Source of the DNA: Candidatus Izemoplasma sp.
Lineage (GTDB): Bacteria; Bacillota_I; Bacilli_A; Izemoplasmatales; Izemoplasmataceae
Assembly (NCBI GenBank): GCA_036172455.1
Contig: JAXKVY010000004.1
Location: forward strand, 62,001-126,000
DNA: 64,000 bases
Direction of reading: 5' to 3'
The notes beneath the pieces are model-generated. The model was given only the letters and a program-made list of their open reading frames with translations. It did not search any database and had not been told where the DNA came from. Made by a program: the position numbers and the translations under genes. Position 1 is the first letter of the stretch. Each line of letters opens with the position of its first letter. Shown here piece after piece: positions 32,119 through 54,058 of the stretch.

Positions 32119-33465
32119 TTATTGGTTGAATAACTCTATTAAATACATCTCTTCAAAGTTCTCACTAAAGTGAATCGTGCCATCATTGCCATACCAAATG
32201 GCTTCTAAGTTGTCGATATTATTCACGAAAGTTTGTCCTTCACTAATAGGCATGGTGAAGATTGCTGTTGAATATAAATCAGCTAATCCAGGATCACTCG
32301 TCACAATACTTACTGAGCGACTATAACTTTCGGGCATTAAGGTATTTGGATTAATAATATGATGATATCTTTCGCCATCTACCATATAGTATTTTTGATA
32401 ATCACCACTCGTCACAAGTTGGTCACCATCTGATAAATAAATTGTAGCGTAGTATGGATATGCTCCTGAAAACGTTGGATCGGTAATGGCTAGAATAAAC
32501 TTACCATTATCACGTGATGGATGTTCACCGCCAATTGAGATATTTGATTCCCCATTATTAAGTAAGTACCCATATAAGTCAAGCGCATCTAGATAATCAG
32601 TTAAGACACCAGAGATAATGCCTTTACTCACACCACCTAAATCAAGCGACATACTTGGTCCCATTTGAATGGTTAAGTTTGTCTCATTTAAGATGATATC
32701 TTCTGGGTTAGTATAATTATCTGCGGCTTCGAGCTCACTCATTGGGGGGACTAAACAATCATTATCAATTTGACAATCATCACGATAATTGTGCCAGACA
32801 TTTAAGACGGGTCCTAGTGCAATATTGAATAAGTTATCCACATCATCTTGATGATCTAATGTAAACTGAATCATATTAAATAGCTTTTCATCAATTGTGT
32901 GCACCGCAGTTGGATTGTTGTTAATTGTTTTGACGTTGGTGTAGCCATCATAGACATGGTATTTATCACTTAGTTTATGATAATCTTTCAAGATATTTTC
33001 AACGTTATCAAAAATGTATGATGCTTGATCATGATAGGTATCGTCTTCATAGTAAAACTGTAAGGTAATATACGTATCAAGGTACTCTGTAAACTGAATA
33101 CCACAACGTGTTAAGTTGGTTACAACAACTTCTTTATCACTATTTTCATATAGGTATTTTTGGCATCCGTAATCGCGGTAATACACATAGCGCGTTAACG
33201 TTTTGGTAATGCCCTCATAATTGAGTGTATAGGTAACTTCATAGTCACCTGCGGCTGTTTGATCGACAGTATTATCAATGGTGACATACTGACTGATATC
33301 TTTGCCTTCACTTTTAGCGATAAATCCTTGTTCACTATAAGGCACACTTACACTTAAATTGTTATATGTTTCACCAATCAAATCAAATGTCACATCATTT
33401 TCTTGACACCCAGTTAAGACTAGTGAGAGTGTTATTACACTAATCAAAAGTATTATTTTTTTCAT
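32119..33465 (-). CDS. apbE: ApbE-family FAD:protein FMN transferase, lipoprotein with Ig-like domain
   Basis: 448 residues. A lipoprotein signal ends LTGC (near residue 20). An Ig-like DUF5011-type domain follows (about 30-115, with TAAGDYEVTYTLNYEG), unusual for ApbE. The transferase domain has MSLDLGGVSKGI, LLNNGESNISIGG and the C-terminal TSGDYQKYYMVDGERYHHII. ApbE moves FMN from FAD onto Thr/Ser of target proteins outside the membrane. Targets at hand are RnfG, RnfD and the FMN-bind-like lipoproteins near it. The ATG at 33465 is used because AAAGGA is then 9 bases away. Confidence 0.93.
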   Translation of the reverse strand: MKKIILLISVITLSLVLTGCQENDVTFDLIGETYNNLSVSVPYSEQGFIAKSEGKDISQYVTIDNTVDQTAAGDYEVTYTLNYEGITKTLTRYVYYRDYGCQKYLYENSDKEVVVTNLTRCGIQFTEYLDTYITLQFYYEDDTYHDQASYIFDNVENILKDYHKLSDKYHVYDGYTNVKTINNNPTAVHTIDEKLFNMIQFTLDHQDDVDNLFNIALGPVLNVWHNYRDDCQIDNDCLVPPMSELEAADNYTNPEDIILNETNLTIQMGPSMSLDLGGVSKGIISGVLTDYLDALDLYGYLLNNGESNISIGGEHPSRDNGKFILAITDPTFSGAYPYYATIYLSDGDQLVTSGDYQKYYMVDGERYHHIINPNTLMPESYSRSVSIVTSDPGLADLYSTAIFTMPISEGQTFVNNIDNLEAIWYGNDGTIHFSENFEEMYLIELFNQ

Positions 33466-33514
33466 GATTATCATTCCTTTAACAGTAGTATAGCAAATTA
33501 ATTGTCATCAGTCC

Positions 33515-33544
33515 AAAAAAAAGAGCAAAATCTTTGCCCTTTTT
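33515..33544 (-). terminator. Terminator of the small FMN-bind-like lipoprotein gene
   Basis: On the minus strand AAAAGGGCAAA (33533-33543) pairs with TTTGCTCTTTT (33519-33529) with one G-U pair, followed by more Ts. It overlaps the stop of the gene at 33543. Confidence 0.85.
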
Positions 33545-34190
33545 ATTGACCGTAGTTTTCGTTGTGATATTCCATCAATGATTTGACAATACGAATCATA
33601 TTGTTTGTCGATACACTGCTTCCTGCAAAACTATCAATTAAGTTTTGATTCTCAATTGTTGTATCATTTGAAATACCATAATAGTCGTCATTAGTAAAGA
33701 CCTTAATTCCGTTTAAATCTTCTTGTGATTTTCCAACTAACCAAGGGATAAAATCATTTTCAAAATCTTCTAATGTTTTTCCAGACGGTGTCGGGCTTGA
33801 GTCTCCCCACATTCCTGCTGTATAGGGATGATCGGAACTTTCATCATCATACCCAAACGAGATTTTTCTGATATCATTAGTAAATTTATTAATTTCAATA
33901 AACATGACTTGCCAATAGTTATAATCAGCTGGACGACATGTACAAGATAAGTAAGTGATTTGATATTTTACATAATCTCTAACTTCATATTCATAAAGTA
34001 AATACCCATACTTATCCGATTCTTCTCCATGTCCATTAATGTGTGTAAATGGGATCATGAAGTTAGTTTCTGCTTGAGTACCGTCTCCTGCACCATCAGT
34101 ATAACATTCTGGTCCAACACAGACATCTTCACAAGCTGTTAGCGTAAGGACAGTAAGTAGCAATGTGAACATTATTACAAGTTTTTTCAT
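33543..34190 (-). CDS. Lipoprotein with degenerate FMN-bind-like C-terminus
   Basis: 215 residues from the ATG behind GAGGAGGAG. Lipobox LTAC, then a Cys-rich start (EDVCVGPECY) and a further TCTC-like pair (LSCTCRP). The C-terminal part, DSFAGSSVSTNNMIRIVKS followed by LMEYHNENYG, aligns with the FMN attachment segment of RnfG here (DGISGATVTTTAWINSMQK, then FHNVTYG). The SGAT motif reads AGSS, so FMN linkage, if any, would be to Ser. Context with apbE and the Rnf operon supports a redox role; otherwise not a family I recognise. Confidence 0.72.
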   Translation of the reverse strand: MKKLVIMFTLLLTVLTLTACEDVCVGPECYTDGAGDGTQAETNFMIPFTHINGHGEESDKYGYLLYEYEVRDYVKYQITYLSCTCRPADYNYWQVMFIEINKFTNDIRKISFGYDDESSDHPYTAGMWGDSSPTPSGKTLEDFENDFIPWLVGKSQEDLNGIKVFTNDDYYGISNDTTIENQNLIDSFAGSSVSTNNMIRIVKSLMEYHNENYGQ

Positions 34191-34266: not shown

Positions 34267-35079
34267 TTAATTATTTAATTCGTAGGCTAACAATTCTAAT
34301 ATTGCTGTTTGGGTCGATGAGTCTAGCAAAATAAATACATCATACATTGGTCCTGTTTGCTGAATAAGCGCTTCTTGCAACTCATATAATGTGACAACAG
34401 AACTTAATATTTCTTCTTCAAAAGCTATTAATCTGTAGTGATAATCAAAGGCATTATTATCTTCGTTTGAACGTAGACTAAAGTCGTTCGCATCTGTGAT
34501 ATCAAAGCGAATATCTGTAATTTTTTTATCCATATCTACATGACCATACATGTAATAATGATAACTACTGTCCTTGATGATGTCTTGGTAAAATGTATTA
34601 CCAAGTGTGTACTGTCCATCACCAAGCATTTTATAAACACCATCATACTCATAAAATCCGCCTAGTACAAAGACACGCGTATATCCTAGGTGTTGGAGCA
34701 CATCTTTCATATAGCCACTGCGGATACACCCATCATCAAACATGAAAATCGCTTTATTTTTATCAAATAAGCGTCGGATTTCAGTCTCATCGATGATGTG
34801 ATCTGGTTGAAATTCAAATGTGTTATCACGTTTTACAACACGGTTATCAAGATAATCAAAAAACGGTATTTGTGTGAAAGATTCAATATAACCACTTTGA
34901 AATTTTGCATCAAAATTTCGTAAATCAACATACTGGACATCTGTCCGGTACATATACTGATCTAAGTTTGCCATTGTAATTTCTGATGCGGGTGTAATAT
35001 CTTCAATCTCATCATTTTGGTTATCACACGAACTAATTAGCATAATTATAAAAACTATATAAACGACTTTTATAGGCAT
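34267..35079 (-). CDS. Rhodanese-like lipoprotein with displaced cysteine
   Basis: 270 residues from the ATG behind AAAGGAGGTAGG; lipobox ISSC. A rhodanese domain (about 35-165) has VQYVDLRNFDAKFQSGYI and the loop region FMFDDGCIRSGY. Against its paralog at 43506 (FLMCGSGTRAGY) the catalytic Cys position is Asp, and a Cys (C118) sits three places later. The rest (about 165-270) matches the first part of the paralog's C-terminal region, but the FMN-bind-like motif is missing. It is divergent from the Rnf operon and probably shares its control. Sulfur transfer is doubtful with this loop. Confidence 0.8.
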   Translation of the reverse strand: MPIKVVYIVFIIMLISSCDNQNDEIEDITPASEITMANLDQYMYRTDVQYVDLRNFDAKFQSGYIESFTQIPFFDYLDNRVVKRDNTFEFQPDHIIDETEIRRLFDKNKAIFMFDDGCIRSGYMKDVLQHLGYTRVFVLGGFYEYDGVYKMLGDGQYTLGNTFYQDIIKDSSYHYYMYGHVDMDKKITDIRFDITDANDFSLRSNEDNNAFDYHYRLIAFEEEILSSVVTLYELQEALIQQTGPMYDVFILLDSSTQTAILELLAYELNN

Positions 35080-35258: not shown

Positions 35259-35609
35259 ATGAAAGAGTCTCAAGTTGTCAATGAGTTGTTCGAGAAATGG
35301 ATAGAAGATGCCAAAACGAAATTAAATGAGGACAACTTCTTTTTAAAGATTAACGAGTATTTAGAGAGTACACATCCCGAGATTTGTGGGAAGTGTGCAC
35401 CGTGCCGTGATGGCGTACCTCGTTTAGAAGCATTACTCAAAGAATACAAAGAAGGTAATGCCACTTTAAAGACATTAAAAGAAATTGAGGATATCGTGAA
35501 TAATTTACGATCAAGCCGATGCAGCGTCGGGTTAGATATAGGTAAAAACATGGAGGTTGTACTCGAAAACAACTACCACTTACTGTATAACCCTGTCAAA
35601 AAATATTAA
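35259..35609 (+). CDS. NuoF C-terminal-like [4Fe-4S] protein
   Basis: 116 residues. The motif ICGKCAPCRDGVPRLEALL (C43, C46, C49) with a distant SSRCSVG (C88) matches the Fe-S cluster domain at the C-terminus of NuoF/HydB-type 51-kDa subunits (cluster N3). The FMN- and NADH-binding domains of that family are absent, so it is a stand-alone electron-transfer piece. It is the first gene of the operon and precedes the H-cluster protein by 11 bases. It may pass electrons between that protein and RnfC. Confidence 0.85.
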   Translation: MKESQVVNELFEKWIEDAKTKLNEDNFFLKINEYLESTHPEICGKCAPCRDGVPRLEALLKEYKEGNATLKTLKEIEDIVNNLRSSRCSVGLDIGKNMEVVLENNYHLLYNPVKKY

Positions 35610-35620
35610 GGAGGTTCTCT

Positions 35621-37330
35621 ATGGCTAAGATTACAATAAATGGTAACACCATCAAAGTTAAAAAAGGAACATCAATCCTTAATGCTGCAAAAAGCATAGG
35701 TATTGATATCCCAACCCTATGTTATATTGCAGAAATGAATGAGATAGGATTTTGCCGTATTTGTGTGGTAGAAGTAGAAGGTGAACAAGATTTGGTCTCT
35801 GCTTGTAACACAGAAATTACGAACAAGATGGTTGTTTATACTAATTCAGACAAAGTGAAAGAAGCACGTAGAGCATCGCTTCGATTACTTGCACAAAAAC
35901 ACCGTTTCGATTGTTGGAACTGCCCAAAAGACGGCATGTGTGAATTTTACGACATTTTAAAAGAACACGATATCGTGTTTGAAGAATTTGGTCCAGGGAA
36001 AGGCCGCTATCAAGAATTTATTGATGGTAGTGCAATCAATCAAGACCAAACAAAATGTATTTTATGTAAACGATGTGTCGCTGTGTGTAACGATGTTGTT
36101 GCAGCGCGCGTATTAAAATTCAGAGATGATGATGGACTTAATCCAATCGTCTCACCAACTCCAGAATTATCATTTGATGAGTCAGGATGTATTGGCTGTG
36201 GGCAATGTGTGAAAGCTTGTCCAACCGGAACATTATTTGTCAAGGACCACGCGACCGATGTTGAAGAGATGTTATTAGATGCTGTTCCAGTCGTGGCGCA
36301 AATGAGTGAAGAAGCAGCGATGATTATTGCTGAAGAATTACAACAGTTTAGTGAAGATGTTAATGTAAGAGAAGCCTACAACACGGTTAAACAAATGGGA
36401 TTCAGTGATGTCTTAGATGTCAATACTGCCAAAGATATGGTTGTACTAGAAGACGTTAATACTTTAAAAAATCGTCTAAAAAACAAACAGGATATATCAC
36501 TTATTTCATCCCACTGTCCAGCTGCTGTTCGGTTCACCGAACTATATCATGATGACCATTTAAATGCGTTATCAACAACAAAAACAGCGCATATGGCACA
36601 AGCTAAACTCATCAAAGATGTATTAGACCATAAAGCTAAAGTGGTTTCTATCTTACCGTGTACTGCGGCTAAAATGGAAATGACACGTGAAGAGTTAGAA
36701 GGACATGTTGATGCCGTCTTAACAGTTAACGAAGTAATGAAAATGATTAAGCATCGTTATCTAGATAAAGAACGTCATGAAGTTGATATCGATACCGGGA
36801 CATTGCAAAGTGTCTTATCAGTCGCGAGTCAATATCAAGGATCTATCTTACAACTTGAGAATGTTTTACACAAACTGTCATTAGATATTGATAATAAGCC
36901 GCTTCAGCCAATTGACTACAAGGTAATCGCCGGTGATGAATCAAAAGCATCAAAAGGTGTTATTAAAGAAGCAAAAGTTAAAATTGGTGACCACAAATTA
37001 AACGTCGCAGTTGTACGTGGTGGCGCACAAATTAAAGCTTTTTATAAGATGTTAGATGACACAAATAAAACCTATGATTATGTGGATATGATGGCGTGTC
37101 CAGAAGGATGCACAAATGGTGGTGGAACCCCATTTGAACACGACATTACAACGCATGAAGTGATTAAAAAGCGGATTGAAATGTTGTGCCAACATACCGA
37201 TATGGCCCAGTATGATCCAAGCGTTTCTACGAGCGTACTTTATGAGAAACATTTAGATCATCCAAGTAGTGATGACGTGATGACACTTCTTCACACATCA
37301 TTCAGTCCAAAAGAATCAACTAAGGAATAG
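35621..37330 (+). CDS. [FeFe]-hydrogenase-like H-cluster protein, modified active site
   Basis: 569 residues, the length of Clostridium CpI. Domains in order: [2Fe-2S] ferredoxin (C34, C45, C48, C62); His-Cys [4Fe-4S] (H94, C98, C101, C107); two [4Fe-4S] (CILCKRCVAVC, CIGCGQCVKAC); H-cluster domain; small-subunit-like tail (LYEKHLDHP, LLHTSF). All four H-cluster ligands are there: C299, C347, C493, C497. But motif L1 reads SSHCPAAV instead of TSCCPxW, so the proton-relay Cys is His298; L2 reads LPCTAAKME (usual MPCxxKxxE, one Lys lost); L3 MACPEGCTNGGG is normal. It may be a slow or biased hydrogenase, a sensor or an electron-transfer subunit. No hydEFG maturases are in the window. Confidence 0.88.
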   Translation: MAKITINGNTIKVKKGTSILNAAKSIGIDIPTLCYIAEMNEIGFCRICVVEVEGEQDLVSACNTEITNKMVVYTNSDKVKEARRASLRLLAQKHRFDCWNCPKDGMCEFYDILKEHDIVFEEFGPGKGRYQEFIDGSAINQDQTKCILCKRCVAVCNDVVAARVLKFRDDDGLNPIVSPTPELSFDESGCIGCGQCVKACPTGTLFVKDHATDVEEMLLDAVPVVAQMSEEAAMIIAEELQQFSEDVNVREAYNTVKQMGFSDVLDVNTAKDMVVLEDVNTLKNRLKNKQDISLISSHCPAAVRFTELYHDDHLNALSTTKTAHMAQAKLIKDVLDHKAKVVSILPCTAAKMEMTREELEGHVDAVLTVNEVMKMIKHRYLDKERHEVDIDTGTLQSVLSVASQYQGSILQLENVLHKLSLDIDNKPLQPIDYKVIAGDESKASKGVIKEAKVKIGDHKLNVAVVRGGAQIKAFYKMLDDTNKTYDYVDMMACPEGCTNGGGTPFEHDITTHEVIKKRIEMLCQHTDMAQYDPSVSTSVLYEKHLDHPSSDDVMTLLHTSFSPKESTKE

Positions 37331-37340
37331 TGGTGAGAGC

Positions 37341-38561
37341 ATGATAACTGAAAACAAAACATATCTTGATCCCAACAATGTGTATTTGCCAATCACCGAT
37401 GAAGATGCGAAAATCGCATCACTTCAGGTAGAAGAAGGCGACACCGTTAAGGTTGGGCAAATCATTGCCAATAAATATCGTGGTAAAAAAGCAATCCCTG
37501 TTATTTCAACCGTTAGTGGAGAAGTAAAAGGTGTTGAACAACGGGTTAACCGCTATGGTTTATTTGTTGATCACGTTATTATTGAGAATGATGGGAAAAA
37601 TACATTAGAATCATTTGATACGTATGATGATGAGGTTCCAACTCAGGTCATTCGAAATCAATTATTACGTTTAGGAATTCATCAAGTTACTGTCGATGGA
37701 TTATATACAAACATTTCATTTGAACAACCAATTAATCATTTAATGATCGATGCGGTATATACCAACGAGCCATTCATTAGTTTAGATTATGATTCGCTTG
37801 TTGAAGAAGCAGATGAAATTACCGAAGGGATTGTATTGCTTGCTAAAGCATGCAAAGCAAAGACCGTGACGGTACTTGTTGATAAGTATATGAATCAAGA
37901 AGCACTAGATGAATTAGGTAAATCAATCAGTGACACCATCATTGAACTTGACGTTGTTAACTCAAAAAAAATGAATGGTGCTGATTATAAAGTAGCACGT
38001 AAATTACTTGGACGTAGACCATCCATTAATTTACTTGATGATGGCATCATGTTTACCAGTGTCTTCACCGCAAAAAGTGTCTATCAAGCAATCCATCAAG
38101 GATTACCTCTGACAACACGTAAAGTAGCGATCACAGGAGATGCCTTCATTACCAATGCCTTATATAATGTGCGCATTGGAACATTGTTTACAGATTTAGT
38201 AGAAGATTTAGGTGGATACAACGATACAGAAGCGCTAAGTTGTCACATAGGAAACTTCTTAAGTGGTAATCAGGCAGAAAGCGATGCCTTCAGTATTGAC
38301 GCAACAATCAATTCGATTGATGTGAGTCGTTACCGTAAGGTTGAAGAAGATGTCTGTATTAAATGTGGTGACTGTAATGATGTCTGTCCAGTCGACATCC
38401 TTCCGCAAAACATCATGGATGCTGAAATTAGAAGCGTTGGTGAACGGATTGTGGAACTACATACAGATGACTGTATTGAATGTGGGTTATGTACCTTCGT
38501 TTGTCCATCAAAAATCAATGTCTTAGAATGGGTACGTCGTGCTAAACGACGTGTTGGATAG
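37341..38561 (+). CDS. rnfC: RnfC-like subunit with degenerate NADH/FMN site
   Basis: 406 residues. The N-terminal RnfC barrel-sandwich region (EGDTVKVGQIIA, then STVSGEVKGVEQRV), a 51-kDa-like middle, an SLBB-like part (VAITGDAF, VRIGTLFTDLVEDLGG) and two [4Fe-4S] motifs (CIKCGDCNDVCPV, CIECGLCTFVCPS) are present. The usual GxGGAGFPT loop is replaced by LRLGIHQVTVDGLYT and the NGAECEPY segment by DAVYTNEPF, so FMN and NADH binding look lost. In ordinary Rnf this subunit takes or gives electrons to NAD. Here another partner, likely the hydrogenase-like protein encoded just upstream, is needed. Confidence 0.9.
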   Translation: MITENKTYLDPNNVYLPITDEDAKIASLQVEEGDTVKVGQIIANKYRGKKAIPVISTVSGEVKGVEQRVNRYGLFVDHVIIENDGKNTLESFDTYDDEVPTQVIRNQLLRLGIHQVTVDGLYTNISFEQPINHLMIDAVYTNEPFISLDYDSLVEEADEITEGIVLLAKACKAKTVTVLVDKYMNQEALDELGKSISDTIIELDVVNSKKMNGADYKVARKLLGRRPSINLLDDGIMFTSVFTAKSVYQAIHQGLPLTTRKVAITGDAFITNALYNVRIGTLFTDLVEDLGGYNDTEALSCHIGNFLSGNQAESDAFSIDATINSIDVSRYRKVEEDVCIKCGDCNDVCPVDILPQNIMDAEIRSVGERIVELHTDDCIECGLCTFVCPSKINVLEWVRRAKRRVG

Positions 38562-38571
38562 GAGGTTCAAC

Positions 38572-39678
38572 ATGAATTTTACAACTACAAAACCACCTGT
38601 TAAATATAATCAACAGCGGTCATTGAAACGCGCCCTTAACCTTCATATTGCCTTAATTGTTTTGGCTGTAGCATCGATTGCTTTACGCGCTGTATCACCC
38701 GTTGCAGCAGACGCAACGGTGACCAATCTTGATATTGCATTTAAAGCATTCTTAATGATGTCAGTCGGAATTGTGACCAGTGTCATGGTCGAAATATTTT
38801 ATGCGTTAAGTGAAGGAACGATTAATAAGTTTGAATCATATGATCGATGGATTGATCCGATCAATACAGGATTATTAATCGCATTATTACTCCCATCAAC
38901 AACGCCAATTTATGCCTTAGTCGTATCCGTTATTGTTGGTGTATATGCAGGGAAACTCGTTTTTGGTGGAAAGGGATACTACATTTTCAACCCTGTCTTA
39001 ATCGCTGTCTTATTTGCAACCTTAACCTTTGGTGGGCAAATGTCAGTCGAGGGGACACCATTACTGTTAATGAAAGATGCGATTTTTAGTGGTAGTGTTA
39101 ATTTTGATTTAACACGGTTACTAATAGGTAACTATACAGCCGTCGCTATTGGAAGCACATCTGTTTTATTACTGCTTGTTGCGTTTATCTATTTAACGCT
39201 AACAAAGGTGATCGATTTACGCATTTCATTAACCTATCTATTAACAATTTTTATTGTGTCACTTGGTATTGGGTTGATTAATTTTACAACGCAAGCAACC
39301 TTTGTGTATACCTTTGTTAATATGATTACAGGATTAACCATGTTTGGTGCTGTATTCTTAGTTGGTGAATCAGTCACGAGCCCAACATCACGCGAGACCA
39401 AAATTATTTATGCGGTCATTGTCGGGATCTTAGTGATGCTTATTCGCGTCTTATCGGCAGAACCTGAAGGGGTTGTCTTTGCGATATTATTTGGAAATAT
39501 GTTAACACCATTTATGAACCGTACGGTAAAACGCAGTGATAAAAAAGGTCTTATTAAAACCATTGCCTTTAGTGCACTAGCTGTCTTAATAGCCTCAGGA
39601 GCGATTGGATTTATTGTGCAATCACGCTTGATTGATAACCTCAATGAAACAGCACAATTATTAGGAGGGATACTATGA
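38572..39678 (+). CDS. rnfD: RnfD membrane subunit
   Basis: 368 residues from ATG 38572, directly behind AGGAGGT; an earlier in-frame ATG inside rnfC is rejected. About nine membrane helices. RnfD carries covalent FMN on Thr of a (S/D)GATPL motif; here the segment is SVEGTPLLLMKDA with T162, so the Thr stays although the preceding Ala is Gly. The later segment GNYTAVAIGSTSVLLL matches the conserved G-S-x-G-E-T-S loop with changes. The gene overlaps rnfG by 4 bases (ATGA). Confidence 0.92.
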   Translation: MNFTTTKPPVKYNQQRSLKRALNLHIALIVLAVASIALRAVSPVAADATVTNLDIAFKAFLMMSVGIVTSVMVEIFYALSEGTINKFESYDRWIDPINTGLLIALLLPSTTPIYALVVSVIVGVYAGKLVFGGKGYYIFNPVLIAVLFATLTFGGQMSVEGTPLLLMKDAIFSGSVNFDLTRLLIGNYTAVAIGSTSVLLLLVAFIYLTLTKVIDLRISLTYLLTIFIVSLGIGLINFTTQATFVYTFVNMITGLTMFGAVFLVGESVTSPTSRETKIIYAVIVGILVMLIRVLSAEPEGVVFAILFGNMLTPFMNRTVKRSDKKGLIKTIAFSALAVLIASGAIGFIVQSRLIDNLNETAQLLGGIL

Positions 39679-41627
39679 AGTATATGCGAATAGTTTTCTC
39701 TTTAATGCTTGTGGTAGTTGCCGCAATGGTTGGTGTATTCTTTGTTGAGAAATTAACCACACCTGTTATTGAAGCCTATCAATTAGAACAAGCGAACCAA
39801 GCGAAATATGCTGTATTTCCTGAATTAAGTGACTTAACCAGTGGCAAAAGTGGGGATGAAATTGAAGCATTACTCGCCCCAGAAGAAGGACTTGATTTAG
39901 AAGGTACAGGTATTAATGAAGTAATTAATTTAGATAATAAAGGATATATTTATACCGCAACATTCCAAGGATATCAGTCACAAATTAAATACATCATGGG
40001 AATTGATCCAGATGGCAACATCACAGGATACCAAACCTTAGAACAAGGGGACACACCAGGTCTAGGGGCTGAGATTGCTAATCCAGATTACTGGAAGCAA
40101 TTTAACGGTATGCCGACAGAACAAGTGATGGAAGGAAATATTGATGGTATTTCTGGTGCTACTGTTACGACAACCGCATGGATTAACTCAATGCAAAAAG
40201 TCATTGAGTTTCATAATGTCACTTATGGTGGTGCGCAATCAGAAACCCCTGAAGAACGCTTAGCGCGTTTGAAACAAGAATTGTTACCTGAAGGGATTAC
40301 CTTATCAGAGTACACACCACAGACAGCAAGCCTTGATAATACTGGTATTACCAATGTTGAAGTCGCAAGCGATGGTTCAACAAACACACATGTTGTATAC
40401 ACTGTTGAGTTCACAGGATTTAATACCGATGATGTCATAAGATACCTCATTGCCTTTGACTTAACTAGTAATGAAACGATTGGATTCACCGTTTTATATG
40501 CGAATGATACACCAGGTTATGGTCTTAAAATTACAGAAGAAGATCGCTGGTTACAATTTGAAGCCGGTAAAACAAGTGAAGAACTCTTGAATGGACAAAT
40601 TGATGGTATTACAGGTGCTACCGTAACAACGACTGCATGGAAAGCATCATTACAGGCAGTGAGTCAGTTCCATCAAGTTGAGTTTGAAGGAAAAGAACCT
40701 TCATTAACATATGAACAACGTTTAGAACAATATAAAACAGATGTATTCACTGAGGGTGAAACCTTCACAGAAGTGACTACTGAAAAACCAAACCATATTC
40801 AAATTAAAGCAATCTATGATGTCTTTGATGATAGTGATACATTACTTGGTACCTTATATCATGTTGTTACGATTGGCGCAAGTTATAGTGAAACAACCTT
40901 CATTGAATACTACTTGGCAATTAACGTAGATGGCTCATTTGCCGGTTTTAGAATGTTACGTGATACTGAAACAGAAGGTCGCGCTGATGCATTCTATGGC
41001 GCAAGTTATGATGATACCTTTGAAGGTGATGATATTGAATCAGACTATACGATTGATGATGTGAGTGGTAGTACCATTACACAAACACATATTGCAACAT
41101 CAATTGAGGATATCGTATCGTACCACCTAACGAAATACAATGTTAGACCAGAACCTGTTGACGTAGCTACATCAGACTTATTTGCTGCATACTCGTCAGC
41201 CGCAAGCTTCAATAGTATTTATTCAGAGTATGAATATGAAGGTGCCATTGGCAATGTCTATGAAGCACTAGATAGTGGTGGCGCGCATATTGGATATGTG
41301 TATTATGGACAGTTTGCTGGATACAACGATGGTATTACTTACATTGCTATTGGTGTTGATTTATCCAGCATTACACAACAAATTACCGTTGTCATTAATG
41401 GTGAAGATTGGACTGGTGCAGAATATGCAGGCTATGATGGTAGCGCAGGACTGAACTTCCCATCAACATCATGGTTAGATCATTTTGAAGGTATTGATTT
41501 ATCAACTTATACATTATCAACTGTTGATGATGTGGCAGGGGTATCAACAACTACTGGTGATTTACGTACTTTAATTGAGACCATTGCTAATTATCATGCA
41601 AATCAAATATTAGGAGGTAGTAACTAA
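39675..41627 (+). CDS. rnfG: RnfG with four FMN-binding repeats
   Basis: 650 residues, three times the usual RnfG. One N-terminal membrane helix (about 5-25) anchors an outside region with four FMN-bind-type repeats. Attachment motifs are DGISGATVTT (T163), DGITGATVTT (T316), DDVSGSTITQ (T467) and DDVAGVSTTT (S624/T625). Repeats 1 and 2 are closest to consensus and to each other; 3 and 4 are more divergent. Each could carry one covalent FMN placed by the ApbE at 32119, making a chain of flavins along one protein, as in extracellular flavin relays. It overlaps rnfD and rnfE. Confidence 0.92.
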   Translation: MKYMRIVFSLMLVVVAAMVGVFFVEKLTTPVIEAYQLEQANQAKYAVFPELSDLTSGKSGDEIEALLAPEEGLDLEGTGINEVINLDNKGYIYTATFQGYQSQIKYIMGIDPDGNITGYQTLEQGDTPGLGAEIANPDYWKQFNGMPTEQVMEGNIDGISGATVTTTAWINSMQKVIEFHNVTYGGAQSETPEERLARLKQELLPEGITLSEYTPQTASLDNTGITNVEVASDGSTNTHVVYTVEFTGFNTDDVIRYLIAFDLTSNETIGFTVLYANDTPGYGLKITEEDRWLQFEAGKTSEELLNGQIDGITGATVTTTAWKASLQAVSQFHQVEFEGKEPSLTYEQRLEQYKTDVFTEGETFTEVTTEKPNHIQIKAIYDVFDDSDTLLGTLYHVVTIGASYSETTFIEYYLAINVDGSFAGFRMLRDTETEGRADAFYGASYDDTFEGDDIESDYTIDDVSGSTITQTHIATSIEDIVSYHLTKYNVRPEPVDVATSDLFAAYSSAASFNSIYSEYEYEGAIGNVYEALDSGGAHIGYVYYGQFAGYNDGITYIAIGVDLSSITQQITVVINGEDWTGAEYAGYDGSAGLNFPSTSWLDHFEGIDLSTYTLSTVDDVAGVSTTTGDLRTLIETIANYHANQILGGSN

Positions 41628-42268
41628 TGGCTAAAAAGCAAAAATCATTAGGAGAGATTTTCTCCGCAGGGCTATTTAAACAGAACCCTACCTTCGTACA
41701 ATTTCTAGGAATGTGTCCAACACTTGCCGTAACCGGTAGTGTTGAGACCGCACTAGGAATGGGGGCAGGTGTCCTCTTTGTCCTCGTTATGTCAAACATT
41801 ATTATTTCATTAATTCGTAACTTTGTACCAAACGAAGTGCGGATTCCGATTTATATCGTTGTTATTGCATCGCTCGTTACGATTTTAGAAATGGTTATGA
41901 AAGCCTATGTCCCAGATTTAGCAGCCGATTTAGGTACATTCTTAAGTTTAATTGTTGTTAACTGTCTAATCTTAGGACGCGCAGAAGCATTTGCTTCAAA
42001 ACATGGTCCAGTCAAAAGTGCCTTAGATGGACTCGGGATGTCACTAGGATTTACCGGTGGGATCACTTTACTTGCTTTCTTCCGTGAATTATTCGGTGCA
42101 GGAAGTATTACCATTTGGGGAGAATTGGGAATTCAATTAATCCCAGAAAGTTACCAAATGGGAATCTTAGTTCAAGCCGCAGGTGCCTTCTTAGTATTTG
42201 GTATCTTAGTCGCACAAATCAATAAAATTAAATTCGCTCGTGAAGATGCACAAAGTGAGGTGGCCTAG
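41627..42268 (+). CDS. rnfE: RnfE membrane subunit
   Basis: 213 residues, about six helices, normal length. The conserved start LFKQNPTFVQFLGMCPTLAV and the cluster-linked Cys pair (GMCP and VNCLILGRAEAFA) match RnfE/NqrD, which with RnfA holds a [2Fe-2S] cluster in the membrane and forms the ion path. The ATG overlaps the rnfG stop (TAATG). No unusual features compared with the family. Confidence 0.94.
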   Translation: MAKKQKSLGEIFSAGLFKQNPTFVQFLGMCPTLAVTGSVETALGMGAGVLFVLVMSNIIISLIRNFVPNEVRIPIYIVVIASLVTILEMVMKAYVPDLAADLGTFLSLIVVNCLILGRAEAFASKHGPVKSALDGLGMSLGFTGGITLLAFFRELFGAGSITIWGELGIQLIPESYQMGILVQAAGAFLVFGILVAQINKIKFAREDAQSEVA

Positions 42269-42865
42269 ATGGAATATATAGCAATAGCATTTGGTGCAAT
42301 CTTTGTTAACAATGTTGTTTTAAAGCAATTCTATGGACTATGTCCATTCTTAGGGGTTTCAACGAAGAAAAGCAGTGCCTTATCAATGGGTATGGCCGTG
42401 ACATTCGTTATTACCTTCTCAACAATGATTGCTTACGCGTTATACTCGCAAGTCTTAGTACCAAACGATATAACGTACTTATCAACCATAACCTTTATCT
42501 TGGTTATCGCAAGTTTCGTACAACTTGTTGAGATGTTTATTAAAAAGTTCAGTAGTTCCATTTATAGTGCACTGGGTGTTTATTTACCATTAATTACAAC
42601 CAACTGTGCCGTACTTGGGGTTGCGATTGATACAACCGTTAACTCAAGCAAAATATTCAACACAACCACTCCAGGTTTCTGGCAAGTGACTGTGTATGCT
42701 GTTGGAATCTCGATTGGATACGCATTTGTAATCTTCTTATTCAGTGCGATTCGTGAAGAGATGGATGCTTACCCAATTAAACGTAACTGGCAAGGTATTC
42801 CAATTGCGCTGATTGTCGCATTCATTATGGCCATGATCTTTTATGGATTTGGAGGGATTGTCTAA
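42269..42865 (+). CDS. rnfA: RnfA membrane subunit
   Basis: 198 residues with about six helices. NNVVLKQFYGLCPFLGVS and TTNCAVLGVAI carry the two conserved Cys that face those of RnfE to bind the [2Fe-2S] cluster. It starts one base after the rnfE stop and overlaps rnfB by one base (TAATG). Length is normal (about 190 in the family). Confidence 0.94.
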   Translation: MEYIAIAFGAIFVNNVVLKQFYGLCPFLGVSTKKSSALSMGMAVTFVITFSTMIAYALYSQVLVPNDITYLSTITFILVIASFVQLVEMFIKKFSSSIYSALGVYLPLITTNCAVLGVAIDTTVNSSKIFNTTTPGFWQVTVYAVGISIGYAFVIFLFSAIREEMDAYPIKRNWQGIPIALIVAFIMAMIFYGFGGIV

Positions 42866-43170
42866 TGACGACAGTAATATTACTCGCACTAATCATTAGC
42901 GCCAGTCTGGCTATCTTATTGAGTTTAGCTAGCGTCGTCTTCCATGTCGATGAAGACCCACGTTTACAAGATGTTGTTGATATGTTACCGAACCAAAACT
43001 GTGGGCTTTGTGGTAATCCAGGATGCCGTGCCATGGCACAAGCTATTCTGAATGAAGACGCAAAGTTAACGCAGTGTAAGCCCGGTGATCAAGCAATGCG
43101 TGAAGATATTAAAGAGTACTTAGAAAGTACACCTAATGAAGATGGCGAATTTGTTAAAGTTAAAATGTAA
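42865..43170 (+). CDS. rnfB: Minimal RnfB (membrane anchor plus one Fe-S motif)
   Basis: 101 residues. One membrane helix (about 4-25) is followed by the RnfB Fe-S domain NQNCGLCGNPGCRAMAQA with a fourth Cys in LTQC (C-x2-C-x4-C-x16-C). The large C-terminal polyferredoxin part of normal RnfB (total 260-330 residues), which takes electrons from ferredoxin, is absent. A terminator starts 5 bases after the stop and no frame continues the family, so this is not a frameshift. Ferredoxin docking must take place elsewhere, perhaps on the hydrogenase-like protein or RnfC. Confidence 0.88.
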   Translation: MTTVILLALIISASLAILLSLASVVFHVDEDPRLQDVVDMLPNQNCGLCGNPGCRAMAQAILNEDAKLTQCKPGDQAMREDIKEYLESTPNEDGEFVKVKM

Positions 43171-43175
43171 TACAC

Positions 43176-43206
43176 AAAAGGTCAACCGTAATGGTTGACC
43201 TTTTTT
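43176..43206 (+). terminator. Terminator of the hydrogenase-like/Rnf operon
   Basis: AAAAGGTCAACC (43176-43187) pairs with GGTTGACCTTTT (43193-43204), loop GTAAT, T run to 43206. Confidence 0.94.
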
Positions 43207-43505: not shown

Positions 43506-44909
43506 TTATTCAGTTGGAGTAGCTTCAGTTAATGCTTCTTCAACTGCAACTTTCCAACCATCTACACCGATTGTTACACCAGCAACAGCATCGATTGTAC
43601 CTTCAGTAGCGTCAACTGTCCATTCCCAAGTTTGAGCATCTAAAATGGCAGCTTCTAATGCATCAGCTTGACCCCACCAGTCAAGTTTTCCTGCATCTAA
43701 TTCGTAGAAGTCATCACTAGCATCATTAGGAGTTCCGTTATCGTTAAGTGTATAGTTCATTGGATAGTCAGCAGGTACATCATAATCACGTTTCATTGAG
43801 ATAAAATCAGTTGTGCCATATTCAAAATGTGCAGCATCTAAGAATACGTCAACAATCATTCCATCTTCAATCGTAATTAATGCAGTATATCCAGCTTCAT
43901 GTCCGTAGTAAACACCATCTTCATAATCATAAGGAGCTTCGTGAGCAGCAGCCCATTCTTCAGCTGTAATAGTTGTTTCAACAACACCTAAGTCTGAGTC
44001 ACTTGCTTGAGCGATTGCGTCGTTCCAAGCGAATACGAATCCTTCAGCACCAACTGTAACACCAGCAACTGAGTCTGGATTGTTGTCTGCGTCAAACTCA
44101 ATAACATGATGAGGCACAGTTAAAGCAGTCCAAGAAGCATCGAATGGAGTTTCAGTAAGGTCAATTCCTTCCCAACCTTGATTTTCCATTACATAACTAG
44201 CTAGCATGTTTGCATGTTCGAACCATTCCATAGTGTCTCCACCTTCATCAGTGTCTCCCATACCATACCCATATCCTAAGTTTTGCTTAGTAGTACCATG
44301 AGATAAGGCATCAAAGATTACGTTTGCAATGCCACCTTTGTCATTAATAACAACGATTGCCATATAGTCACCAACAGGATCGAATCCGTAGTAAGTACCT
44401 GGCTCGTAATCACCTTTAACATCAGGGTTAAGTACGTAAGAACCATCACCAACAACCATGTTTGCACCATCATAGTCTGAGATTCCGCCAACGTTAATGA
44501 CGTTTTCGTATCCTAAACTGTCTAATGCAGCTTTAACGTATCCAGCGCGAGTTCCGCTACCACACATTAAGAAGATTGTTTTCTCTGAATCAAATAAACC
44601 TTGTAAACCAGCTTGGCTTACGATATCTTCAGCAGCAAAGTCCCAGTTACCATCAGTACGAACTAAGATATTTTCATACTCAAGATAATCAAAGAAAGGA
44701 ATAAACTCAAATCCACTAATATAACCAGATTTCATTTTGTCATCCCAGTTACGTAAGTCAATGTATTGAGCATCTTCTCTATTTAAATAGTCATCAATCT
44801 CAGCCATCGTTACAGTGTCAGGGATTTCAGGTAATTCTTCTTCTCCACCACATGCAGTTAACGCGAACGTTAAAACTAATGCAGCTAATAAAGCAAATAA
44901 TTTTTTCAT
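43506..44909 (-). CDS. Rhodanese lipoprotein fused to two FMN-bind-like repeats
   Basis: 467 residues. Lipobox LTAC (Cys20). A rhodanese domain (about 35-165) has AQYIDLRNWDDKMKSGYI and the active loop CGSGTRAGY with C116. Two repeats follow (about 170-300 and 310-460), each ending in DSVAGVTVG or DAVAGVTIG, which resemble the FMN attachment motif (S/T)GAT with Val for Ala. The first 270 residues are paralogous to the lipoprotein at 34267 on the other side of the Rnf operon. It may carry flavins set by ApbE and receive electrons from RnfG, with the rhodanese handling sulfur; that is inference. GGAGG precedes the ATG. Confidence 0.85.
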   Translation of the reverse strand: MKKLFALLAALVLTFALTACGGEEELPEIPDTVTMAEIDDYLNREDAQYIDLRNWDDKMKSGYISGFEFIPFFDYLEYENILVRTDGNWDFAAEDIVSQAGLQGLFDSEKTIFLMCGSGTRAGYVKAALDSLGYENVINVGGISDYDGANMVVGDGSYVLNPDVKGDYEPGTYYGFDPVGDYMAIVVINDKGGIANVIFDALSHGTTKQNLGYGYGMGDTDEGGDTMEWFEHANMLASYVMENQGWEGIDLTETPFDASWTALTVPHHVIEFDADNNPDSVAGVTVGAEGFVFAWNDAIAQASDSDLGVVETTITAEEWAAAHEAPYDYEDGVYYGHEAGYTALITIEDGMIVDVFLDAAHFEYGTTDFISMKRDYDVPADYPMNYTLNDNGTPNDASDDFYELDAGKLDWWGQADALEAAILDAQTWEWTVDATEGTIDAVAGVTIGVDGWKVAVEEALTEATPTE

Positions 44910-45110: not shown

Positions 45111-45533
45111 ATGAAGAAGTCTGACTTGATTTTAATAGTATTTTTACTGGTTGTTGCGGTCGGGTCATTTGTCTATTTTCAAAGATTGACCAGTCAGAAT
45201 TCAGTAGTCGATGGTACAGCCAATGTCTATTATAAAGATCAAATTATATTAACAATAGAATTAAAAGATGGCACATATCAAATTCATAATGATACATTAG
45301 TCGTTGACGCATCACTTGGAGAGTACACAGTGGTGGGATCCAATGGTGATGTCGTCATCGAATATAAAGATCATCGTGTACGTGTTATTGATGAAATTTC
45401 GCCAAAAAATATTTGTCAAATCCAGGGTTGGAGCAATTCGCCCTATCAACCCATTACGTGTCTACCGAACAATATAGTGATTTTAATTGAAGCGGATAAA
45501 GGTGATGATGCACCAGATGACATTACCGGTTAG
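45111..45533 (+). CDS. NusG domain II-containing exported protein
   Basis: 140 residues. A membrane anchor (about 6-24) precedes a NusG_II (PF07009-like) domain: strands around YKDQIILTIELKDG, and the signature ISPKNICQIQGWSNSPYQPI followed by TCLPNNIVILIE, with two conserved Cys. Such proteins recur beside FMN-bind, ApbE and Gx transporter genes; the exact function is unknown but a redox or heme-like role has been proposed from context. It is followed 10 bases later by a small membrane protein gene. AGGTGG precedes the ATG. Confidence 0.85.
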   Translation: MKKSDLILIVFLLVVAVGSFVYFQRLTSQNSVVDGTANVYYKDQIILTIELKDGTYQIHNDTLVVDASLGEYTVVGSNGDVVIEYKDHRVRVIDEISPKNICQIQGWSNSPYQPITCLPNNIVILIEADKGDDAPDDITG

Positions 45534-45772: not shown

Positions 45773-45798
45773 AAAGCAATCCGCTGGATTGCTTTTTT
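45773..45798. terminator. Terminator between convergent genes
   Basis: AAAGCAATCC (45773-45782) pairs with GGATTGCTTT (45786-45795), loop GCT, T run to 45798 on the plus strand; the minus side has a shorter T run. Confidence 0.9.
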
Positions 45799-46408
45799 AG
45801 AGAAATTTATGTGTCGTTTCAGTAATAGTGATCTCAGCTTTTCCTTTTGTATTATTGATAAAAAATTGTTTAAAGCTATCGAACTGATCAGCTTTCATTA
45901 TGATATGATACGTTACATGTGTGTCATAGGTTGTATCAACTAAATGATAGTCTTTACGAATGAAGTGTTCAACATGACCAATCTCATCAAAGGGAATTCT
46001 TAAACGCACCTTATGAAGTTCTGTAAGATACGTAAAGGTAGCTGATTCAATGTTTTGACTAACACCCTTTGCATATGCACGTACCAGCCCTGAAGCGCCA
46101 AGTTTAATTCCGCCAAAAAAACGCACAGATATCGCAAACACATTCGTGAGATCATTTTTCTTTAAGACATCTAACATGGGTAAGCCTGCAGTCCCTGAGG
46201 GTTCGCCATTATCATCGTACTTTTGAATCGATTGAAGCGGTTTAATAATGTAGGCAGTGCAGTAGTGATTTGCCCCAGGATGCTCATCTTTAATTGTTCT
46301 AAGATGTTTTTCTACAGCATCCACAGATGCAACAGGGATTAAATAGTTATGAAAGACACTTTTATTAATGACAAGCCGATTATATGTTGTTTTCTGAATA
46401 CTTTTCAT
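45797..46408 (-). CDS. yigZ: YigZ/IMPACT family protein
   Basis: 203 residues. The UPF0029/IMPACT signature is present: ASVDAVEKHLRTIKDEHPGANHY begins the domain, then DDGEPSGTAGLPML and FFGGIKLGASGLVRAYAKG. A C-terminal ferredoxin-like DUF1949 part follows. Role in bacteria unsettled, possibly in translation. The start at 46408 is chosen because GGTGAT precedes it and the minus-strand TGGTATAAT (TATAAT at 46424-46429) would place transcription start after the farther upstream ATG at 46435. Confidence 0.92.
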   Translation of the reverse strand: MKSIQKTTYNRLVINKSVFHNYLIPVASVDAVEKHLRTIKDEHPGANHYCTAYIIKPLQSIQKYDDNGEPSGTAGLPMLDVLKKNDLTNVFAISVRFFGGIKLGASGLVRAYAKGVSQNIESATFTYLTELHKVRLRIPFDEIGHVEHFIRKDYHLVDTTYDTHVTYHIIMKADQFDSFKQFFINNTKGKAEITITETTHKFL

Positions 46409-46508
46409 GGTATCACCGAGTGTATTATACCACATTTCATAAGCGATAAAAATACCTTAATTATTGGAAATATTGACCTAAATAGTGTATAATCAACTTG
46501 GTGATGAT

Positions 46509-47702
46509 ATGACTGACTATGAAGCAAATGCAAAACATGTATTAAAGACCTTAAACGACGCCGGTTACGAGGCGTATTTTGTTGGCGGATTTGTACGTGA
46601 CACCTTATTAAATTTACCCACAAAAGATATTGATATAACAACCAATGCTACACCACAAGAGGTCATTGACTTATTTGATCGCGTAAAAGAAACAGGTATG
46701 AAGTATGGTACTGTCACAGTACTGTTTAATAACCTTGCCTATGAAGTGACCACTTTTCGAAGTGATGGCACATATACGGATAATCGAAGACCAGACACCA
46801 TCCAGTTTTCAAAAACGCTAGAAGAGGATGTCAAACGTCGTGATTTTACAGTCAATGCGTTATGCATGGATTATGATGGAGATATTATTGATTTGGTCGA
46901 TGGTCAAGCGGACTTAGCTAAAGGAGAGTTACGCATGATTGGTGATCCGCATAAACGCCTTAAAGAAGATGCCTTACGGATGTTAAGGGCAATTCGGTTT
47001 GTGAGTAGTCATGGGTTTCATCTTCAACAAGAGACACATGGTGCGATTACAAGCCATAACGCCTTAATTCCGACCATTGCGATTGAGCGTATTATGCAAG
47101 AACTTGATAAAACATTTCGGGGTCAGTATCTCAATGAGGCGATAAATGTGTTGCTTGAAACAGATGTCGCTGATGTCTTATATGGGATTAAACCAGGGCT
47201 TGAGTATTTGAATCGAAAAGGGAAACAACTCAATAATCTTTCACCGATAGAAATCTTTACCATCTGTTTTATTCTTGGTGAAGATAATGATATTTGGCGC
47301 TTTTCGAATCGGCAACGCCGGTTAATTGATCAATTAATTTTACTCCATGAAGTGACAAAAGAAGATCAATTTAACACCTTTTTAGTGTTCTCATATTCGA
47401 TTGAAGTTTGTGACATAGTTAATCGGATTAACGTCACGTTAGGGTATCGTGATCAATCGCAACGGTTAAAAGAAATTGATCAATCCATGCCGATTAAAGA
47501 TGTCTGCGATTTAAAGTTTAAAGGTGAAGATATCATTAAGTTAACCACATTAAAAAAACACAGTTTAATAGGTCTCATTATTGATGATTTATTAGAAGGT
47601 GTTTTAGAAGGGCGCTTAAACAATAATTATCAGGAATTAAAAGACTATACATTAAATAAAATTAATGCCTTACAGAAAGACACGGGAGATAAGAATGAGT
47701 AA
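46509..47702 (+). CDS. cca: CCA tRNA nucleotidyltransferase
   Basis: 397 residues. Nucleotidyltransferase head motifs: YFVGGFVRDTLLNLPTKDID with the DxD pair, then RRPDTIQFSKTLEEDVKRRD and FTVNALCMD, then DPHKRLKEDALRMLRAIRF. This is a class II CCA-adding enzyme or poly(A) polymerase type; with 397 residues and no extra domains CCA addition is most likely. It builds or repairs the 3' CCA of tRNAs. The ATG at 46509 follows GGTG at 46500-46503 and a TATAAT at 46488-46493; an ATG at 46485 would precede the promoter box. It overlaps the pullulanase gene by 8 bases. Confidence 0.95.
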   Translation: MTDYEANAKHVLKTLNDAGYEAYFVGGFVRDTLLNLPTKDIDITTNATPQEVIDLFDRVKETGMKYGTVTVLFNNLAYEVTTFRSDGTYTDNRRPDTIQFSKTLEEDVKRRDFTVNALCMDYDGDIIDLVDGQADLAKGELRMIGDPHKRLKEDALRMLRAIRFVSSHGFHLQQETHGAITSHNALIPTIAIERIMQELDKTFRGQYLNEAINVLLETDVADVLYGIKPGLEYLNRKGKQLNNLSPIEIFTICFILGEDNDIWRFSNRQRRLIDQLILLHEVTKEDQFNTFLVFSYSIEVCDIVNRINVTLGYRDQSQRLKEIDQSMPIKDVCDLKFKGEDIIKLTTLKKHSLIGLIIDDLLEGVLEGRLNNNYQELKDYTLNKINALQKDTGDKNE

Positions 47703-49788: not shown

Positions 49789-49796
49789 GTGAAATC

Positions 49797-50702
49797 ATGG
49801 AAACAACAACCTTTTTTGCAAAAATAATATCGGTAAATCAAACTTCATATGAGACAAACACATTACGAATTGAACATGAAACCCATGATGGCGAAACAAT
49901 TCGCATCGACCAAAACAGTGATGTTTTAGAAAATGCCGTTTATGAGTTTGAATGCCAAACGGTCACATTTAAAGAACAACCACAATTACAAGTCGTCAAG
50001 TTTACTCATATTGATGCATCAGATATTCCATTTAAGAGACGTCAAGAATTAATGGAGACATTTTATGAGTATGCCCCAGTCTCAATGGAAAAAGTCAAAG
50101 ATATCATTGAAAGTTATTTAAAACGGCTAAAGAACCCAATCATAAAAGAACTCGTATTGACATTATATGAGCGTCATGAAAAAGACTTTTATTTATACCC
50201 TGCGGCGACAACGTTTCATCATGCGTATATTGGTGGACTAAGCTATCATACCTCAACCATGTTAACATTGATTGATGGCTTTTTAGATGTGTATCCATTC
50301 TTAAATGAAGACTTACTAATCGCAGGTATTTTCTTACATGATATTTGTAAAATTGAAGAGTTATCACATTATGCAGGCCCTGAATATACCAAAGTCGGTA
50401 AACTCATTGGTCATATTACAATGGGAGTAAAAGAAATTGAACTCGTCGCCCATGAGCTCGGTTATAAAGATACAGAAGAAGTCTTACTTATTCAGCATAT
50501 GATCTTGTCTCACCATTATTATGGGAATTATGGGTCACCGAAAAAAACCAATATCCCTGAGGCATTAATCCTTCATTTTATTGATAACATCGACTCTAAA
50601 ATGACCGTATTACAAGAAACACTTGATCAAACTGAAAAAGGAGAATTTACTTCCCCAATTCGTGTTTTAGATCGTGAAAGATATTATAAATCTAAGCTTT
50701 AA
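49797..50702 (+). CDS. yhaM: YhaM-type 3'-5' exonuclease (OB fold plus HD domain)
   Basis: 301 residues. An N-terminal OB-like nucleic-acid-binding part (about 1-85) is followed by an HD domain: FHHAYIGGLSYHTSTML, IAGIFLHDICKIEEL with the HD pair, and an H in MILSHHYYGNYG. Order and length match YhaM of Bacillus, which trims RNA and single-stranded DNA. Eight bases after the pullulanase stop, with AGGTGA before the ATG; last gene of this unit, which begins at cca. Confidence 0.93.
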   Translation: METTTFFAKIISVNQTSYETNTLRIEHETHDGETIRIDQNSDVLENAVYEFECQTVTFKEQPQLQVVKFTHIDASDIPFKRRQELMETFYEYAPVSMEKVKDIIESYLKRLKNPIIKELVLTLYERHEKDFYLYPAATTFHHAYIGGLSYHTSTMLTLIDGFLDVYPFLNEDLLIAGIFLHDICKIEELSHYAGPEYTKVGKLIGHITMGVKEIELVAHELGYKDTEEVLLIQHMILSHHYYGNYGSPKKTNIPEALILHFIDNIDSKMTVLQETLDQTEKGEFTSPIRVLDRERYYKSKL

Positions 50703-53974: not shown

Positions 53975-54058
53975 AAATGTATCACTCCTTAAATAATTAC
54001 GCAATATATATAATACCATTAATAGGCGACAAAAACAATGATAAATTTAGAAAGATAT

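Follow-up and report, generated by a model that had tools for sequence, protein, structure and literature searches.

Introduction

The role described for the Rnf complex is to transfer electrons between ferredoxin and nicotinamide adenine dinucleotide (NAD; reduced form, NADH). Module exchange of the kind considered here has been invoked to explain how complex I arose. Here, we describe an eight-gene operon (35259–43170, forward strand) in a window of 64,000 nucleotides from Candidatus Izemoplasma sp. (GCA_036172455.1, contig JAXKVY010000004.1, positions 62,001–126,000, forward strand), in which a set of rnf genes follows genes for a NuoF-derived iron–sulfur protein and an [FeFe]-hydrogenase-like protein. 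The operon probably encodes a second Rnf pump. In place of the cytoplasmic NADH site, this pump would have a peripheral arm of the HydABC/complex I (Nuo) type, linked to H2 in some species and independent of H2 in this organism. We know of no earlier Rnf in which the NADH reader has been exchanged for a hydrogenase-derived wire.

Domains 2 and 3 of RnfC superimpose on NuoF (PMC9588780), and in HydABC a [4Fe-4S] cluster links the protomers, HydA to HydA (PMC9499530). The Bfu family includes membrane-bound types, Mbh-Bfu and Nuo-Bfu (PMC9304861). For multi-flavin RnfG proteins, a role in diverting electrons to the outside has been suggested (PMC8238504). In ZiA1, HR1 and HR2, 'two Rnf complexes' and hydrogenases have been noted, with no hybrid described (Kim 2018, PMC6256511). 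An Rnf-linked Bfu or hybrid was not found in the literature searched, an earlier mention in the Izimaplasma HR1/HR2 genome description being possible; the Bfu survey (PMC9304861) likewise mentions none in its text and contains 'Rnf' only once, in its reference list.

Below, G and L numbers are working labels for genomes and loci, the prefix v marks proteins of the hybrid operon and HydA2 denotes a HydA-like protein of the L020 type. The window genome (G000) comprises 1.69 Mb and is 99% complete.

Organization of the operon

The eight genes are all open and are separated by gaps of 0–15 base pairs or overlap, in the order vNuoFC, vHydA, vRnfC, vRnfD, vRnfG, vRnfE, vRnfA, vRnfB.

35259–35609, + strand: vNuoFC, a free-standing NuoF/HydB C-terminal [4Fe-4S] domain of 116 residues with the motif CGKCAPC...C (PF10589, NADH_4Fe-4S, E = 3e-13)
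35621–36256, + strand: N-terminal part of vHydA, a NuoG-like iron–sulfur wire with one [2Fe-2S] and three [4Fe-4S] clusters, one of them His-ligated
36257–37330, + strand: H-domain of vHydA with an eroded active site; motifs L1 SSHCPAA (36506–36526), L2 LPCTAAKME (36653–36679) and L3 DMMACPEGC (37085–37111)
37341–38561, + strand: vRnfC, 406 residues; loop for NADH and flavin mononucleotide (FMN) gone, two C-terminal [4Fe-4S] sites retained
38572–39678, + strand: vRnfD, FMN-attachment Thr retained and invariant in relatives
39675–41627, + strand: vRnfG, 650 residues, FMN_bind; four ApbE-type flavinylation motifs at residues 157, 310, 461 and 618
41627–42268, + strand: vRnfE, TIGR01948 (228 bits), Cys motifs retained
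42269–42865, + strand: vRnfA, TIGR01943 (208 bits), Cys motifs retained
42865–43170, + strand: vRnfB, short form of 101 residues with a transmembrane helix and one [4Fe-4S] domain (PF04060)
43176–43204, + strand: terminator hairpin followed by a U tract (z = -5.7)

RnfA, B, C, D, E and G are thus all present in one operon, with the flavin-bearing Thr of RnfD and RnfG and the Cys pairs of RnfA/E in place. The closest solved structure to vRnfC is 7zc6_C (E = 2e-52) and that to vNuoFC is the C-terminal part of Thermotoga maritima HydB (7p5h_B, E = 2e-10); the four Cys ligands of vNuoFC are invariant in 15 relatives. vHydA (569 residues) combines Fe_hyd_lg_C, Fer2_4 and Fer4 domains. The eight tightly spaced genes and their families, as read in a first-pass annotation made from the sequence, are borne out by the open frames, the spacing and the domain matches, and the terminator placed after them is likewise found. 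The single -10 box that had been placed before the operon is rejected, since the best sigma-70 box matches at 9 of 12 positions and shuffled sequences score as well.

An RnfC without its NADH site

A complete canonical Rnf without a hydrogenase-type arm is encoded elsewhere in the window genome. Its RnfC (L017) has the glycine-rich NADH/FMN loop (VGLGGSGFPSYIK...ECEPY), whereas vRnfC reads GIHQVTVDGLYTNISF...TNEPF, and the loop is missing from every vRnfC read, in both orders in which the operon occurs (see below), including relatives with intact hydrogenase motifs. Judged by its loop sequence, vRnfC lacks the means by which RnfC binds FMN and NADH; the loss claimed from the window is confirmed by the canonical paralogue. 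The first-pass annotation had held a second complete Rnf to speak against the hybrid. Such an Rnf exists, but its presence marks the hybrid as a second, specialised complex and does not refute it.

The short RnfB fares differently. Its lack of the polyferredoxin part is confirmed; however, the canonical RnfB of the same genome is also 101 residues long, so the shortening is a trait of the lineage and was rejected as a special mark of the hybrid operon.

From its domain match, vNuoFC would be the NuoF piece that RnfC lacks. Because vHydA and vNuoFC are the constant gene partners of an RnfC without an NADH site, its electron connection has most likely passed to them. The proposed replacement of the NADH module accordingly extends from the window to all relatives read.

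A conserved wire and a decaying H-cluster

The N-terminal iron–sulfur chain typical of HydA in HydABC/Bfu enzymes is present in vHydA, and all 16 of its ligands are invariant among 21 sequences. The H-domain has followed another course. The H-cluster ligands C300, C355, C499 and C503 (SSHCP, LPC, ACPEGC; numbering of Clostridium pasteurianum CpI) are kept, these being the four cysteines of the [4Fe-4S]H cluster; in the motif alignment with HydA, the proton-relay residue C299 is replaced by His and Lys358 by Ala. Loss of C299 or Lys358 abolishes or cripples catalysis in the [FeFe] hydrogenases studied, and with both lost H2 chemistry by the window vHydA is unlikely. The hydrogen-linked pump envisaged by the first-pass annotation is therefore not upheld for this organism, the motifs being intact in relatives only. 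The fold of the H-domain is retained (predicted model against Acetobacterium woodii HydA, 7q4w_A, Z = 36); the N-terminal iron–sulfur part of the AlphaFold model is poor (mean predicted local distance difference test score, pLDDT, 64.5).

In eight relatives (G045, G047, G048, G051, G052, G053, G469 and G470; G047 is Izimaplasma HR2) the H-cluster motifs are intact, including the C299 and Lys358 positions. G469 and G470 carry the TSCS form (TSCSPGW) also found in A. woodii HydA1. As the latter is a characterised hydrogenase, TSCSPGW was rejected as a sign of a dead H-cluster, and the vHydA of G469/G470 and the HydA2 of most relatives are counted as probably competent.

In the remaining relatives the motifs are eroded to varying degrees. 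Across most of the family the wire is 66–77% identical to that of the window vHydA and the H-domain 29–39%, whereas in members with intact motifs the two identities are alike. In the operon tree, the eroded G050 and G049 are nested in groups with intact members that have 100% support; about seven separate erosions are needed if motifs cannot be regained, several deeper nodes being supported at only 43–68. These comparisons show a wire that apparently began as a working hydrogen enzyme and whose active site decayed later, several times. The ratio of nonsynonymous to synonymous substitution rates (dN/dS) between near relatives is 0.04–0.14 for the operon genes, and the values of 0.10 for the eroded H-domain and 0.07 for the wire indicate purifying selection on both, although dS is near saturation and the values are rough.

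Distribution of the gene string

Among 90 Izemoplasmatales genomes searched, vRnfC is present in 18, all from a single family, and a canonical RnfC accompanies it in nearly all of them. The operon regions of 17 of these 18 have the same gene order, some being ended by contig edges. Outside this family, free-standing vNuoFC was seen only in a second order, in four genomes (G468 from a partial operon), bringing the total to 22 genomes in two orders, with some contigs ending within the operon. The hosts belong to a group of wall-less sediment bacteria. A vRnfC scan of 84,980 genomes, which reaches close relatives only and missed G294, returned Izemoplasma-type and uncultured Mollicutes/Mycoplasmatota records and one weak, probably spurious match. 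The genome search for the string NuoF-C/HydA-like/rnfCDGEAB proposed at the outset thus found it to recur and, given its recurrence in 18 + 4 genomes with dN/dS of 0.04–0.14, the string is not due to chance.

Two further kinds of RnfC-like protein were encountered. Genera without the hybrid operon encode a 380-residue RnfC-like protein without the NADH loop together with an RnfD-like protein (L070:2382-4503, L071:7690-9811, L072:6517-8642, L073:7923-10066), beside a NusG_II protein and without RnfG, E, A and B; an ApbE gene lies nearby in L070, L071 and L073. The pair would constitute a minimal RnfC–RnfD system. G469 has an RnfC-like protein with the NADH loop (L135:10156-11478) whose barrel-sandwich part is apparently shifted to the C-terminus, a layout that presumably resembles that of PrdC.

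Other hydrogenase loci and a possible connection to HydA2BC

Five H-domain proteins are encoded in the window genome, vHydA and those of four other loci.

L019: canonical HydABC
L018:3767-5547 (G000:C1, about 271.8–273.5 kb): second NuoE–NuoF–HydA set; HydA split into two overlapping frames with the three motifs intact
L020: HydABC-like set, NADH-binding, with a dead H-domain (HydA2)
L021:5823-8655: H-domain protein with Fer4, FeS and PAS-like parts (assigned by eye), adjoining a SpoIIE-type phosphatase

The split in L018 is either an assembly error or a real frameshift, and L021 is likely to be a hydrogen-sensing system. hydF and hydG lie above the cut-off, and a second hydG-like radical-SAM match adjoining hydG is probably hydE. 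HydB/BfuB, with its NADH and FMN site, and HydC/BfuC are not in the window operon; they are present in L020 and in the operon of G294.

G294 (97% complete) carries on one strand rnfD-G-E-A-B-hydC-hydB-hydA2-nuoFC-hydA-rnfC, with the rnfD start read in L134. The NADH/FMN motifs of its HydB are retained in the translation and the H-domains of both HydA proteins are dead. Neither hydF nor hydG was found above the cut-off in G294, where the H-domain proteins looked at were those of these loci and no exhaustive H-domain search was made. Its other HydB-type locus is joined to a formate-dehydrogenase-like sequence, and it too carries a canonical Rnf. With dead H-domains, hydF and hydG not found and the operon kept, the arm appears to have a use without H2, next to an NADH-binding module.

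In G469, hydA2-B-C follows the hybrid operon at a distance of about 3 kb. The vHydA and HydA2 of this genome (L104:571-2346, L101:6529-8298) are 78% identical over the H-domains and 40% over the N-termini, a disparity that indicates probable gene conversion or exchange confined to the H-domain. Within the family of the window organism, 16 of the 18 genomes with the operon encode HydA2, as against one of the 31 others (p = 7e-10, not corrected for ancestry); the two operon-bearing genomes that lack it are 53% and 72% complete. Dead HydA2 is confined to genomes with eroded vHydA (six of 11, against none of six with intact vHydA), a marginal association (Fisher p = 0.043 over 17 genomes, without correction for ancestry).

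Flavin and rhodanese surroundings

The operon is flanked by genes for flavin attachment, flavin-type lipoproteins and rhodanese-like lipoproteins.

32119–33474, - strand: ApbE flavin transferase with N-terminal signal (PF02424, E = 7e-50), syntenic
33543–34190, - strand: lipoprotein with RnfG/NqrC (FMN_bind) fold and flavinylation-like motif AGSSVSTNN; no Pfam match
34267–35079, - strand: rhodanese-like lipoprotein (PF00581) with altered active-site loop FDDGCIRS, conserved in relatives
43506–44909, - strand: lipoprotein with a rhodanese domain (CGSGTRA; PF00581) and two flavinylation-like motifs, syntenic in relatives
45111–45533, + strand: NusG_II-domain protein (PF07009), syntenic in relatives

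In relatives, ApbE, the flavin-type lipoprotein and the rhodanese lipoproteins flank the operon wherever the contig is long enough. The model of 33543–34190 (mean pLDDT 68) matched 7zc6_G with Z = 8.9, and its 13 best matches were all RnfG/NqrC. vRnfG has four flavinylation-motif matches here and one to five in relatives, against one in canonical RnfG. By motifs and fold, ApbE is thus accompanied by secreted proteins that would carry flavin, and the extracellular relay suggested earlier is supported as a predicted multi-FMN relay built from the four vRnfG motifs and the lipoproteins. It is an add-on branch, since G294 has the same arm with a single-flavin RnfG of 184 residues.

Relatives of the rhodanese-like protein 34267–35079 share the loop FLYADGCIRS in place of CxxGxRS, which suggests that its chemistry may have changed. 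Thiosulfate improves the growth of a cultured relative (PMC8397711), an observation that, taken with the rhodanese domains, is no more than a lead. A tie to the Listeria locus for extracellular electron transfer through the genes at 45797–50702 was rejected, as these encode YigZ, CCA transferase, pullulanase and YhaM. Further along, 51431–54019 encodes an 862-residue protein with no Pfam match.

Proposed mechanism and alternatives

In the Rnf pump with a replaced NADH site, vRnfC would keep its NuoF-like domains without the FMN/NADH loop, vNuoFC would supply the NuoF C-terminal [4Fe-4S] domain in trans and vHydA the NuoG-like wire, the three together rebuilding a HydA–HydB-type junction with a dead flavin site. 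Electrons may then cross between vHydA and the clusters of RnfC and continue by way of RnfD, G, A/E and B, ions being moved as in other Rnf complexes. Where the H-cluster is intact, the wire would end in proton reduction or H2 oxidation, giving an [FeFe]-hydrogenase-coupled Rnf; in the window organism the arm would work without H2, since that site is eroded. Its most likely electron partner there, with less certainty, may be the NADH-binding HydABC-like set L020, pairing through its dead HydA. Given that HydABC dimers are wired HydA to HydA, such a mixed HydA2–vHydA pair is plausible. The overall route would run between ferredoxin/RnfB and either protons (intact species) or NAD by way of HydA2BC (the window species and G294), and the four-flavin RnfG, ApbE and the flavin lipoproteins may form a side branch to extracellular acceptors.

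Several points weigh against this reading. The contacts vHydA–vNuoFC–vRnfC and HydA2–vHydA are inferred, and the reading does not account for the keeping of two Rnf complexes. Motif state does not correspond one-to-one with activity, as position 300 is Ser both in G469/G470 and in A. woodii. The co-occurrence of HydA2 with the operon in the first family is confounded by shared ancestry, HydA2 lies outside the hybrid operon in most of that family and many genomes of a second family have HydA2-HydBC without a hybrid Rnf, which points to a life of its own.

A bolder version, which we hold as a tentative possibility, is an asymmetric supercomplex: a HydABC-type dimer in which one half bears the NADH lobe HydBC and in the other the lobe is swapped for the Rnf pump (RnfC and NuoFC), forming a bifurcating, ion-pumping hub that would connect NADH and ferredoxin with extracellular acceptors and, where the H-cluster is preserved, with H2.

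Somewhat less probable is that the main role is electron export, the Rnf core running one way and the four-flavin RnfG and the flavin and rhodanese lipoproteins passing electrons to acceptors outside the cell (Fe(III), flavins or sulfur compounds, thiosulfate among them). The role proposed for multi-flavin RnfG (PMC8238504), the better growth of the cultured relative with thiosulfate (PMC8397711) and the flanking ApbE, two flavin-type lipoproteins and rhodanese lipoprotein in relatives all favour export; the single-flavin RnfG on the same arm in G294 makes the relay an add-on, however, and RnfA/E/B, unneeded for one-way export, are retained. We think it unlikely that vHydA and vNuoFC instead stand in for the missing RnfB polyferredoxin, docking on RnfC at the RnfB FdII–III site and feeding RnfB FdI as an input rather than an output. 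In the C. tetanomorphum structure RnfB FdII–III packs on RnfC (PMC9588780) and that part is missing here, but the canonical Rnf of the same genome has an equally short RnfB and no such arm, and a NuoF-derived piece fits RnfC, whose NuoF-like site was the one lost. Still more doubtful is a hydrogen-linked Rnf in the window organism, in which the vHydA H-cluster would make or take H2 coupled to ferredoxin through the pump. The intact motifs of the eight relatives and the maturases of the window genome are in its favour; against it, C299 is His and Lys358 is Ala, the canonical HydABC (L019) accounts for the maturases and the complex persists in G294 despite dead operon H-domains and with hydF/hydG not found there. 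Functionless decay of the operon, which the fast erosion of the H-domain might recall, is very improbable and pseudogene decay was rejected on dN/dS (0.04–0.14, including 0.10 for the eroded H-domain), with all genes open and the iron–sulfur ligands invariant.

The Rnf with a hydrogenase-derived arm points to a new way of plugging cytoplasmic electrons into the Rnf pump: the NADH reader would be swappable for a hydrogenase-derived wire, comparable to the module exchange in Mbh-Bfu and Nuo-Bfu, and some species would possess an ion-pumping complex with an [FeFe] hydrogenase. If the asymmetric supercomplex is true, it would amount to an Rnf-Bfu, which in some species would also be an [FeFe] hydrogenase of the energy-converting kind. 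The natural series of intact, eroded and hydrogenase-free forms allows the change from catalytic subunit to conduit to be tested. Close relatives are in culture, such as Xianfuyuplasma coldseepsis zrk13 (PMC8397711), which may serve for such tests if it carries the operon.

Comparison with known systems

With the Rnf complexes of C. tetanomorphum (7zc6), A. woodii (9eri) and Azotobacter vinelandii (8ahx), the hybrid shares the RnfC-D-G-E-A-B set and its order, the FMN Thr of RnfD, the Cys of RnfA/E and the two [4Fe-4S] clusters of RnfC. It differs from them in an RnfC without the NADH/FMN loop, the added vNuoFC and vHydA, the four-motif RnfG and the short RnfB, the last also a feature of the lineage's canonical Rnf. 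Compared with HydABC from T. maritima (7p5h), A. woodii (7q4v) and Thermoanaerobacter kivui (8a6t), vHydA is HydA-like over its full length, vNuoFC corresponds to the C-terminal domain of HydB and HydB/HydC are likewise present in the G294 operon; in the hybrid, however, RnfC replaces the NADH part of HydB, the H-cluster is eroded in many members and a membrane pump is linked.

The multi-flavinylated RNF clusters and Gram-positive flavin-based extracellular electron transfer systems (PMC8238504) share ApbE, a multi-FMN RnfG and flavin lipoproteins with the locus; a hydrogenase-like arm is not reported there, and the hybrid also has rhodanese lipoproteins. Like the energy-converting [NiFe] hydrogenases Ech and Mbh, relatives with an intact H-cluster would carry out ion-pumping ferredoxin–H2 chemistry, although with an [FeFe]-type arm, an Rnf-type pump and unrelated membrane subunits. 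Mbh-Bfu and Nuo-Bfu (PMC9304861) resemble the hybrid in joining a HydBC/BfuBC-type module to a membrane complex that pumps ions, an arrangement complete in G294; in the hybrid the membrane partner is Rnf.

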